Shown in pieces: positions 13,397 to 17,216 of a DNA stretch of 59,328 bases. Position numbers and translations under genes: made by a program. The notes under the pieces are model-generated. The model searched no databases. It was not told the origin of the DNA and saw only the letters and a list, made by a program, of their open reading frames with translations. The stretch is from an uncultured Bacteroidota bacterium (GTDB lineage: Bacteria; Bacteroidota; Bacteroidia; JABEUT01): contig CAIPDV010000037.1 in NCBI GenBank assembly GCA_903863935.1, positions 1-59,328 on the forward strand. The letters run 5' to 3'. How positions within the stretch are numbered: the stretch's first letter is position 1; the number at the start of each line of letters is the position of its first letter.

Positions 13397-14134
13397 TCAG
13401 GATTTTCGGCTTATAAAAATAAGCCTGTCCGATTTATTTGCTTCAAACTTATTCAGTTGGTAATCTCCGTAAATTTCTAGAATTTCAAATCCGCAACCCA
13501 AAATATATTCCCTCAATTTTTCTTCGGAGAAAATACTTACTTTTTCTGCGAACATCGACTCCACTACTCCATCCATCACTTTAATTTCCTTTATTATCAG
13601 GTTATCTTTCACATACCTGTAGATGCTGAAATCAACATTTTCAACGGTGCATTCTTCTTTCTCAAGCAGATATTTTGCTGCCTTTTCACCATTCACATAA
13701 TCAAGTACAAATATTCCGCCTGATTTAAGGGAATTGAAAACATTAGTAAGCACCACTTTATTTTCTTCTTCATTATCAAAATACCCGAAGCTTGTGAAGA
13801 GGTTAAATATATAGTCGTATTTATTTGGCTCCAAAGGCATGCGCATATCATTCACCGCGAATGTGAGGGTCTTGCTTTGATTTTGCCTTGCAGCTTCAAT
13901 TTTTCGCTGGGAAAGGTCAATGCCAGTAACAGTATAACCCATTCGATTGAGCGATATCGAGTACCGCCCTTTTCCACATGCTAGGTCAAGCATAAGGGCA
14001 TTCTTTGCCGGCGAAAGGTGGCTTAGCAGGTTATGAATGAACATATCTGCTTCTTCCTGATCCCTCTCTTTGTAAAGCAGGTCATAGTAAGGGGAATCAA
14101 ACCAGTTACGGTACCATTCTTTTTTATCGGACAT
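13397..14134 (-). CDS. Class I SAM-dependent methyltransferase
   Basis: A 245-residue methyltransferase with motif I LDLACGKGRYSI near residue 50, motif post-I TGIDLSQ, and NDMRMP followed by FNLFTSFGYF, the usual SAM-binding order. The substrate is unknown. The frame opens at a TTG (14152), but the ATG at 14134 (MSDKKEWYRNWFDSPYYDLLY) begins the family's conserved N-terminus, so I chose it. It lies downstream of the diheme enzyme gene with a 35-bp gap and upstream of the DUF2851 gene, possibly in one transcript. Confidence 0.85.
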   Translation of the reverse strand: MSDKKEWYRNWFDSPYYDLLYKERDQEEADMFIHNLLSHLSPAKNALMLDLACGKGRYSISLNRMGYTVTGIDLSQRKIEAARQNQSKTLTFAVNDMRMPLEPNKYDYIFNLFTSFGYFDNEEENKVVLTNVFNSLKSGGIFVLDYVNGEKAAKYLLEKEECTVENVDFSIYRYVKDNLIIKEIKVMDGVVESMFAEKVSIFSEEKLREYILGCGFEILEIYGDYQLNKFEANKSDRLIFISRKS

Positions 14135-14169
14135 AGTGCAAAGATAACACAAAGGAATAAGGCTTGCCC

Positions 14170-15222
14170 CTAAAAGTGGCCGTTCGGGTCAGCAAAGCGT
14201 CTGTCGTGAAGAAATTTCTGGTCGGTGAGCGTTTTCAGAAACGCAATAATATCTGCTTTTTCCAACTCGGTAAGTTGAATTCCCTTAACCAATATAGGGT
14301 CGGCGTGACTTTCGGGAGTGAATTTTTTAGTGTAATGATCTAATACCTGTTTTAAATTTCTGAATCTTCCATCGTGCATGTAAGGGTAGGTCATTTCAAC
14401 ATTTCGAAGGCTTGGAACTTTGAATTTCATAAAGTCTTTCATATCTCCATTGATGGCAGCAACCCCAGAGTCTTGCAATGCAGAATCCATAGCCAGGCCA
14501 GTATTTCTAAAGGTATTATCTGTAAACAAAGGCTCTTTATGGCACTGGGCACAGTTATCTCGAAAAAGCTGAAGTCCGCTTAACTCGGCAACTGAAAGCG
14601 TATCCTCTCCATTCATATACTTGTCGTATCTTGAATCGGCAGAAATCATTAATGCGAGGAATTGTGAAATAGCACGCAACATATTTCGTGAATCAATTAT
14701 CGTATCATTAAAAGCCGCTTTAAACATGGTTACATACTCCCGATTGCGCTGAAGTTTTTTTAGGACATTCTGTAAAGTTTCGTTCATCTCAATTGGATTG
14801 GTTATTGGAGCCAAAGGTTGAACCTCCAAATGATTTATTCTCCCATCCCACATAAAGGAATTACTCCAAATTAGGTTTTCAAGTGGGGGTACATTACGCT
14901 TTCCAATCAAACCATTTATACCATGACTCAATGCGTGGTCAATATGTGCAAAGCCTGCTATCCTTTGATGACAAAAACCGCAACTTACCGAACTGTCTTT
15001 TGAAAGTATAGGATCATAAAATAGTTTTCTGCCGAGAACAAACCCGGCAGGAGTGGGGATGTTTTTTTTAATGTCATAGAACGGTTGTGGAAATCCTTTG
15101 GGAATATGGAACTCCACATCTTTTTGAGAAATGGAAAAATAACCGTTATCGGAAACAAAACTTCCGAGAAGCAGAAGTAAGAAAAAAGGAAATACAAAAA
15201 AATAAATGAACTTTCGCTTCAT
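14170..15222 (-). CDS. MauG/MbnH-like diheme cytochrome c peroxidase family enzyme
   Basis: An exported 350-residue protein with a membrane-anchoring or signal segment at residues 5-22 and two heme-attachment motifs, CGFCH (81-85) and CAQCH (224-228). A conserved Trp in FMWDGR (about 125) lies between the two, where electron hopping runs in this family. YMHDGRF near residue 277 is the second-heme region. Members either reduce peroxide (CcpA) or oxidise a partner protein (MauG; MbnH converts a Trp of MbnP to kynurenine). The gene directly follows an MbnP-like gene with a 6-bp gap, so the MbnH-like role is more likely than a plain peroxidase. Which axial ligand occupies the second heme needs an alignment. 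Confidence 0.85.
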   Translation of the reverse strand: MKRKFIYFFVFPFFLLLLLGSFVSDNGYFSISQKDVEFHIPKGFPQPFYDIKKNIPTPAGFVLGRKLFYDPILSKDSSVSCGFCHQRIAGFAHIDHALSHGINGLIGKRNVPPLENLIWSNSFMWDGRINHLEVQPLAPITNPIEMNETLQNVLKKLQRNREYVTMFKAAFNDTIIDSRNMLRAISQFLALMISADSRYDKYMNGEDTLSVAELSGLQLFRDNCAQCHKEPLFTDNTFRNTGLAMDSALQDSGVAAINGDMKDFMKFKVPSLRNVEMTYPYMHDGRFRNLKQVLDHYTKKFTPESHADPILVKGIQLTELEKADIIAFLKTLTDQKFLHDRRFADPNGHF

Positions 15223-15228
15223 AACTTA

Positions 15229-15966
15229 TCAGTAATTGCCATAATCGATAATACGAAACATGCCTGAATAATTATCTGCTATAGCTTTTGCATTATGGAA
15301 ATCAGTTACGGAAGATATTTTTGAAAAGTCTATGAGGTTTGGAGAAGAAAATAATTTACTTGCATCTGCATCAATAAAAATCTTTTCGTTCTCATTTTCT
15401 TTAATCTGTAATCTATATTCAAAGTGGATTTGTTTAATGCAATTATTCTGTTGCTTATATCCTCCAATATGAAATTCCAGCCGCTTCCCTGTAGCATTTG
15501 AAAATGGGGACTGCCCTTCCATTTTCAAAAATATATACCCTGTGTTCCATGCCCAGAACATACCATTAACAGGGTCTAATGCCCCTGATTGAGCACCGCT
15601 GCAATTATCAATGCTATCTACCCCAAGTGTAAACTCAATGCCTTTGTATTCGCCAAAAGGGACACTATCAATGGTTATTTGCATTGAGTTTTTCTCTTCC
15701 TGATTTATTAAATAATATCCACGAGAAATGAACTCTTTACCCTCTTTATTTTTCAGATGAAAATTTCCGACATAATACTTGAACATGCTTACATTATAAG
15801 ATTGCCCCAAAGCGTTTTTATAATATACCGAATCAAGTTTCAAAGGTTTGTCTCCTACAAAATTTTCAAACCGAATGGTTAGTTTCCCATACCCGGGTGC
15901 GGTAAATGACATAGCAGCCACAAGGGCTGCTATGCATAGAACACTATAAACTAGTTTTCTAACCAT
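15229..15966 (-). CDS. MbnP-like copper-binding protein
   Basis: A 245-residue secreted beta-sandwich protein with a signal peptide (about residues 1-23). It has the MbnP-family core: SMFKYYVGNFHL (about 60-71), LGVDSIDNCSGAQSGALDP, then GMFWAWNTGYIFLK (135-148) and LEFHIGGY (163-170). In studied MbnP, a Trp oxidised to kynurenine by MbnH joins His residues to bind copper. W138 and W140 with H70, H166 and H181 are the natural candidates here. Its ATG overlaps the stop of the YHYH gene (TAATG at 15964-15968), so the two are probably translated in step. No methanobactin peptide gene was seen nearby. Confidence 0.85.
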   Translation of the reverse strand: MVRKLVYSVLCIAALVAAMSFTAPGYGKLTIRFENFVGDKPLKLDSVYYKNALGQSYNVSMFKYYVGNFHLKNKEGKEFISRGYYLINQEEKNSMQITIDSVPFGEYKGIEFTLGVDSIDNCSGAQSGALDPVNGMFWAWNTGYIFLKMEGQSPFSNATGKRLEFHIGGYKQQNNCIKQIHFEYRLQIKENENEKIFIDADASKLFSSPNLIDFSKISSVTDFHNAKAIADNYSGMFRIIDYGNY

Positions 15967-17216
15967 TATTGCATCTTAACTATCTTTCTGGTGTAACTTG
16001 TACTTGACGTTTGCAAACGTAAGAAATATACTCCAGCAGGATAACAAGTAAAGTCAATCGAATAACTCATACTTGGCTGTAAATTACGGTACGTTTTGAG
16101 CAATTTACCGGTAATATCATACAAGCCGCCTTGAATATTATTATCACTCGATGGATCAATATAAAAATAAGCATAATCCGTTACGGGATTCGGGTCAAGA
16201 GTAAGGTTGATTTCCTTCTTGACTTTTTGCACCGATGTATATACAGTGGTGGAATCTGTTGGGGTATTGTGTCCTCCGCCTGGGCCCGTGTTGCCTGTTT
16301 GAACAACGCCATAATAGGTCAATCCGAATGTATACGGATAAACCGGGGTTCTGTTCGAATCAATAGTTACAAAATAGGCGTAAGTCCCGAGCGGATATTC
16401 AGGAGTTATGCACCATCTCCCATTGTTGGAATCAAGGTCACCAGAACTTGCAATGTATTTGTAATCCTCCATAAAATCTCCCAAAGGATAGGTACTATTT
16501 ACAACTGGCCCGTAATTTGCAGATGTTAATATGGTGCCATTGGGTAAAGTATCTCTGTTTACCATATTAGTTCGCAATTGATAGGAAGGAGTCATACGTT
16601 TAATACCTCCGCTGCCATTGGGATTGGCATAACCATAAGCCCCGTACACTGGATATCCGTCAAATGCATAACCAATAATTGGAGAATGAACAGTTTTATC
16701 GGAATCATTATACAAACATTTCGGATTAACATGATGATGATAACAACCCGATTGGTCAGGGTGCCCCAGACAGTTGTCAAAAGTGGCACCTTCAAAGTAA
16801 TAGGCATTTCGATTCCAAATACCTTTGTTATTATAGGACATTCCGTCCGATGAATTATAAATGGCAACACCGTTACTCCAAACCCCAACAGGCCCGAGGC
16901 CAACAACAGTTGGAGAACCGCTTTTTTTTGCAGGTTTACGTGTTATTTTAAAAACAAAATTCTGGTTAGAAGGAATATTAGGGTCCGTACCCCAAGGGCC
17001 GATGCTATACCCCGGAATACAGGTGCAACTAACAAAAACATTGGATGTATCATATTGCACAATCTGAACATTAGAGAGTATGCCACCGTACCCGGTAGCA
17101 TTAGTTGTATTGCGAATCCAGGAAGTAATTTCAGGGCCAATCTGAGCAGAAGTTTGCATTACAGATGCCAAACTAAGTCCAATCAAAATTCCGATTTTTT
17201 TAAATTCTAATTTCAT
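15966..17216 (-). CDS. YHYH-domain protein with T9SS sorting tail
   Basis: A 416-residue secreted protein. Signal peptide at residues 1-24, then a YHYH domain (about 60-300) with the signature GCYHHHVNP, a nearby HPDQSG and IIGYAFDGYPVYGAYGY. The last 80 residues form a type A T9SS sorting domain (LDPNPVTDY through LKTYRNL to YTRKIVKMQ). The longer frame begins with TTG (17252); I chose the ATG at 17216 because it gives a clean signal peptide and has AGGA just upstream. The function of YHYH domains is not established. Overlap with the MbnP-like gene suggests a copper- or metal-related surface role, which is inference. Confidence 0.88.
   Translation of the reverse strand: MKLEFKKIGILIGLSLASVMQTSAQIGPEITSWIRNTTNATGYGGILSNVQIVQYDTSNVFVSCTCIPGYSIGPWGTDPNIPSNQNFVFKITRKPAKKSGSPTVVGLGPVGVWSNGVAIYNSSDGMSYNNKGIWNRNAYYFEGATFDNCLGHPDQSGCYHHHVNPKCLYNDSDKTVHSPIIGYAFDGYPVYGAYGYANPNGSGGIKRMTPSYQLRTNMVNRDTLPNGTILTSANYGPVVNSTYPLGDFMEDYKYIASSGDLDSNNGRWCITPEYPLGTYAYFVTIDSNRTPVYPYTFGLTYYGVVQTGNTGPGGGHNTPTDSTTVYTSVQKVKKEINLTLDPNPVTDYAYFYIDPSSDNNIQGGLYDITGKLLKTYRNLQPSMSYSIDFTCYPAGVYFLRLQTSSTSYTRKIVKMQ

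Follow-up and report, generated by a model that had tools for sequence, protein, structure and literature searches.

Linkage of a gene for a T9SS-tailed YHYH-domain protein to an MbnP/MbnH-type pair suggests a candidate three-part copper-handling system in Bacteroidota

MbnP/MbnH pairs are widespread, the YHYH domain occurs in bacteria, diatoms and phages, and surface proteins of the MopE/CorA type have been implicated in copper acquisition. The presence of MbnP and MbnH outside methanobactin producers was noted in 2013 (PMC3621798) and the pair also occurs in CruR-headed copper operons (PMC9426467); pairs that lack methanobactin have been described before and are not new. Kynurenine copper sites are found in the surface proteins MopE and CorA (PMC3912023), and a published comparison of MbnP with MopE and CorA detected no sequence similarity (PMC3621798). 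The YHYH domain, whose forms include phage tail and giant-virus proteins, was predicted to be a metal-dependent (Zn) hydrolase with a His triad and an Asp (PMC7824862).

The window (i.e., the whole stretch of DNA analyzed, 59,328 nucleotides from an uncultured Bacteroidota bacterium) contains three genes transcribed from the minus strand in the order YHYH-T9SS gene, MbnP-like gene and MbnH/MauG-like diheme gene (17216→14170). The YHYH-domain protein (416 aa; 15966..17216, minus strand, ATG at 17216) was recognized by Pfam PF14240 and PF18962 and by NCBIfam TIGR04183. The MbnP-like protein (245 aa; 15229..15966, minus strand; PF20243) has a signal peptide without a lipobox, and the MbnH/MauG-like diheme c-type enzyme (350 aa; 14170..15222, minus strand) belongs to PF03150. 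The preliminary description had placed the three genes here, which was confirmed, and in an overlapping order, which held for one junction only. The YHYH stop and the MbnP start have one base in common (TAATG, 15964..15968, minus strand), an overlap likely to couple the translation of the two genes, whereas the MbnP stop and the start of the diheme gene are close (6 nt) and do not overlap. A gene for an outer-membrane beta-barrel protein (PF13568; 17349..18077, minus strand) lies directly upstream of the YHYH gene, 132 nt away and on the same strand, and occupies the same position in loci L061 and L062; it is possibly a fourth member of the transcription unit in the sub-clade of the window. 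A class I methyltransferase gene (13397-14152 of the window, same strand) is located 17 nt 3' of the diheme gene and was found at the matching position in L062 and L063.

The diheme enzyme matched CCP_MauG (PF03150; E 1e-51) and contains two CxxCH hemes (C81-C84-H85 and C224-C227-H228). Its best PDB match was MbnH (6E1C), with an E of 1e-39 for the sequence alone and 7e-63 as a profile. Tyr297 occupies the distal position at the second heme, where MbnH also has Tyr and the bacterial peroxidase 1IQC has Met in the alignment, and it was invariant in 18/18 diheme-enzyme homologues. An ordinary cytochrome c peroxidase with a Met-ligated second heme, which the preliminary description had named as the outcome that would speak against an MbnH relative, was ruled out by the Tyr where peroxidases have Met.

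The MbnP-like protein scored 177 bits against PF20243 (cut-off 27, E 4e-52). A single-sequence search gave no match to the solved MbnP, and a profile search gave a borderline match to 7L6G (E 0.036) that aligned GMxWxW and HxG. The AlphaFold model of the protein (pLDDT 80, pTM 0.76) had all six 7L6G chains as its sole PDB matches at E < 0.001, with a TM of 0.53-0.59 by query length; pLDDT was low around residues 119-142, the loop with W138 included. Scores for the strict NCBIfam equivalogs were 55.5 bits for the MbnP-like protein (TIGR04052, cut-off 140) and 206.5 bits for the diheme enzyme (TIGR04039, cut-off 362.85). Because both NCBIfam models were matched below cut-off, the two proteins are relatives of MbnP and MbnH and not orthologues by the NCBIfam standard. 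The kinship of the pair with MbnP/MbnH, as first proposed, is borne out by the Pfam and 7L6G structure matches, the invariant site residues and Tyr297.

Met136, Trp138, Trp140 and His166 of the MbnP-like protein were invariant among 30 homologues. The copper site of Methylosinus trichosporium MbnP reportedly comprises Met, His, solvent and a kynurenine formed from the first Trp of WxW, and because of this precedent W138, and not W140, is expected to be the oxidized residue. By the same analogy, M136, W138 (as the predicted kynurenine) and H166 form the candidate copper site. The original proposal had named W138 or W140 as the site; both are invariant, and the analogy with M. trichosporium MbnP favors the former and not the latter.

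The YHYH protein consists of a signal peptide, a YHYH domain (residues ~30-310; PF14240, 167.6 bits, cut-off 25, E 4e-49) and a T9SS type A C-terminal sorting domain (residues ~342-416; Por_Secre_tail PF18962, E 2e-9). The genome of the window encodes SprA (2426 bits), so a T9SS is present, and the earlier assignment of the YHYH protein as T9SS cargo agrees with PF18962, TIGR04183, fold matches of the tail to the sorting domain and SprA. Residues H152, H160, H162, H177 and D186 were invariant among 36 homologues. H152, H160, H162 and D186 were also found in nearly all of the more distant YHYH members aligned, with L176 and L114 varying in the His cluster, and these four residues agree with the published metal-site prediction of a His triad plus Asp (PMC7824862). 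H152, H160, H161, H162, H177 and D186 are candidate metal residues from the alignments. A PDB fold search with the whole structure model (pLDDT 85) matched the T9SS tail only and nothing for the YHYH domain, a search in which a weak match could be masked; among viral models, the YHYH model matched YHYH proteins of cyanophage. Judged by the model, the fold of the YHYH domain is absent from the PDB at the sensitivity used and gives no function, and kinship of YHYH with MopE/CorA was rejected for lack of a fold match in this whole-model search. A plasmid search for YHYH returned distant matches only.

A homologue of MbnB (MbnB_TglH_ChrH, PF05114) was not found by profile search in the genome of the window (G000, 98% complete). 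A methanobactin context was ruled out on this basis, in keeping with the initial view of a pair without methanobactin.

The association of YHYH with the pair was evaluated in an evenly drawn set of 297 Bacteroidota genomes, in which YHYH was detected in 34 genomes and MbnP in 78. MbnP was encoded ≤5 kb from a full-length YHYH gene (150 bits or more) in 7/21 survey genomes besides that of the window, compared with 0.074 expected (P ~2e-12). These seven genomes span five genera (P 2e-8 when counted by genus). MbnP was present in 12/21 genomes with full-length YHYH and in 65/275 of the others (P 0.002). Among 60 relatives, 20/27 full-length YHYH loci were linked. Twelve trios had short gaps (L061-L065, L067-L071, L076 and L084), some of their genomes recurring among the 60 relatives; L061-L066 and G297-G305 are the same contigs, overlap, and were not counted as independent. 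Co-occurrence, for which the preliminary description had called for a neighborhood count, was thus far beyond chance.

Two gene orders were observed. YHYH-MbnP-MbnH was found in the window and its genus, in L067-L071, L076, L084, G027 and G113 and, with one gene between, in G319. MbnP-MbnH-YHYH was found in G012, G045, G204, G212, G220, G309, G315, G316, G321, G324, G339, G341, G342, G348 and G349. The two orders lay on separate branches of a YHYH tree on which linkage requires at least eight changes, although this was a quick tree with many weakly supported forks. Because the orders lie on different branches and linkage changed at least eight times, the YHYH–MbnP association has apparently arisen, disappeared or been re-established on several occasions. 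Many YHYH proteins have no accompanying MbnP (e.g., in Hymenobacter) and most MbnPs have no accompanying YHYH, so as a rule neither depends on the other. Locus L112 (G027) contains two MbnP and three diheme-enzyme genes ≤11 kb around one YHYH gene; L112_2 is an apparent MbnP/YHYH double match.

Many trios, in either gene order, are immediately preceded by a module of an ECF sigma gene, an ORF of ~90 aa with a membrane segment and a Metal_resist-type ORF of ~155 aa, a set that we take to resemble the CnrYXH metal sensor. The module was detected with the order YHYH-MbnP-MbnH in L064, L065, L206 and L209 and with the order MbnP-MbnH-YHYH in L111, L114, L217, L220 and L222. The Metal_resist-type ORF was well supported by Pfam in L065 and scored below cut-off in L217 and L222; in L111 and L114 it had no Pfam support and clustered with the others by BLAST. 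The trio of the window lacks the module and has the PF13568 barrel gene instead, and a search of the organism's genome for an ECF/Metal_resist sensor found nothing.

A lipobox was absent from all 30 YHYH-linked MbnPs. In the survey it was lacking from 14/20 MbnPs of YHYH genomes vs. 11/57 elsewhere (P 7e-5), a correlation confounded by phylogeny, and 46/57 MbnPs of genomes without YHYH had one. In G101, G144 and G192 the YHYH gene is unlinked, yet MbnP is non-lipidated.

Secreted enzymes are encoded beside some YHYH genes. A T9SS-tailed multicopper oxidase directly follows YHYH in an MbnP-MbnH-YHYH locus (L216:5744-7447), and a T9SS-tailed arylsulfotransferase-like protein is encoded between YHYH and MbnP (L064:11376-13055 and L215:5106-6752) or adjoins YHYH (L099:10534-12075). 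Sulfatase genes (PF00884) were found near YHYH at three loci of different genomes (L109:5521-7125, L110:5598-7196 and L097:3474-5096). A different neighbor was detected for 13/51 Bacteroidota MbnPs unlinked to YHYH, and for 0/30 linked ones: an ORF of 120-140 aa upstream of MbnP, with a gap of 83-346 nt (L031, L033, L037, L038, L049-L052, L055-L058 and L060). This ORF carries the motif C[NDH]G[KQ]C, has a C-terminal tail that contains PP (in many cases HPP or RPP), resembles the copper-responsive leader CruR (CXXC and C-terminal RAPP) and had no Pfam match in the one example tested. The CruR paper makes no mention of Bacteroidota (PMC9426467).

Taken together, the pair and the YHYH gene across relatives suggest an undescribed three-part copper-handling system. 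The best explanation from the gene sequences and their arrangement may be an MbnP/MbnH-type kynurenine-copper module with YHYH as a dedicated third partner, and we hold this explanation, including its proposed working, to be about as probable as its opposite. The diheme enzyme would oxidize W138 of the MbnP-like protein to kynurenine in the periplasm, and the kynurenine would join M136 and H166 to complete a Cu(I) site. MbnP, soluble and non-lipidated, would carry copper to or from YHYH, a putative histidine-rich metalloprotein that would travel through the periplasm and then by the T9SS to the cell surface. Because proteins exported by the T9SS first enter the periplasm, soluble MbnP could load YHYH there, and loading with metal before export is the direction that agrees best with the layout. 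Such loading fits both the linkage and the lack of a lipid anchor. We infer the role of YHYH, as well as copper as the metal. A broader proposal is tentative: a three-protein copper system would be widespread in Bacteroidota, and its periplasmic kynurenine-copper chaperone, after maturation by a MauG-like enzyme, would supply metal to a YHYH cuproprotein en route through the T9SS to the cell surface. If this is true, YHYH would represent a novel class of copper protein or enzyme at the surface.

Copper might instead move in the opposite direction: YHYH would bind it at the cell surface, as the preliminary description proposed, and pass it inward to MbnP and its kynurenine site. The sorting tail and the conserved His and Asp of YHYH, the barrel gene upstream in the window, L061 and L062, and the precedent of MopE and CorA, which are at the surface with kynurenine copper sites (PMC3912023), all agree with capture at the surface. 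However, the model lacks a path through the outer membrane, the flanks of the trios, as far as annotated, contained no identified TonB-dependent transporter, and YHYH has neither a sequence link to MopE/CorA nor a PDB fold match for its domain, so that we consider surface capture rather doubtful; loading before export fits at least as well as copper uptake by YHYH at the surface. The output of the locus might also be an enzyme activity and not copper homeostasis, with YHYH as a surface metal-dependent hydrolase and MbnP/MbnH as its metal-loading or protection factors. The published Zn-hydrolase prediction (PMC7824862) fits H152, H160, H162 and D186, and secreted enzymes (sulfatase, arylsulfotransferase-like) adjoin some YHYH genes, but the prediction names Zn with no experiment behind it and the linkage to a copper-type pair and metal-response genes favors metal handling, making a hydrolase unlikely.

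Shared regulation by metal or envelope stress as the sole reason for the linkage, with three proteins that do not act together, is improbable. The ECF/Metal_resist module beside many trios would suit shared regulation, but the same three genes are linked in opposite orders, there is a translational overlap and the association is also found at loci without the module. Least probable of all is that the diheme enzyme modifies YHYH besides MbnP, oxidizing the conserved W33 and W134 before export. MauG-type enzymes do act on partner proteins and both Trp residues were invariant among 36 YHYH homologues, but more distant YHYH proteins have not retained W134 and YHYH is often without a linked diheme enzyme.

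A conserved, T9SS-exported YHYH protein as third partner appears to be new, and a literature search for YHYH with copper returned unrelated matches only. Through the conserved link, both MbnP/MbnH and the uncharacterized YHYH domain gain a partner that can be tested, and YHYH would become a T9SS cargo accompanied by a dedicated protein with a kynurenine-type metal site.

Compared with MbnP/MbnH of M. trichosporium (7L6G and 6E1C), the window encodes a homologous pair with WxW, the copper-site Met and His, and the second-heme Tyr, but no methanobactin gene was found, a third gene encodes YHYH with a T9SS tail, the MbnP-like protein is only 15-18% identical to 7L6G where the structures match, and both proteins score below the NCBIfam cut-offs. 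The CruR/DUF2946 copper-operon pairs (PMC9426467) and the pairs beyond methanobactin producers (PMC3621798) likewise have a copper context and no methanobactin; the YHYH partner and the non-lipidated MbnP set the present locus apart from both, and relatives of the window have the ECF/Metal_resist module where CruR-type operons have a leader-peptide-like ORF (PMC9426467). MopE/SACCP and CorA/CorB share with the window a kynurenine copper site beside a MauG-like diheme gene and one protein located at the surface, but in MopE and CorA copper is held by two His and kynurenine and it is the kynurenine protein that lies at the surface (PMC3912023). The genes beside many trios are like the CnrYXH-type module in having an ECF sigma, a small membrane ORF and a periplasmic Metal_resist-type protein, and unlike it in their weak Pfam scores in several loci and their absence beside the trio of the window. 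With other YHYH proteins (PF14240; PMC7824862), the protein of the window shares the domain, the His/Asp residues and predicted-structure matches to cyanophage YHYH; it differs in its predicted T9SS export, in its operon with MbnP/MbnH and in having YAYF in place of the C-terminal YHYH motif of short members.
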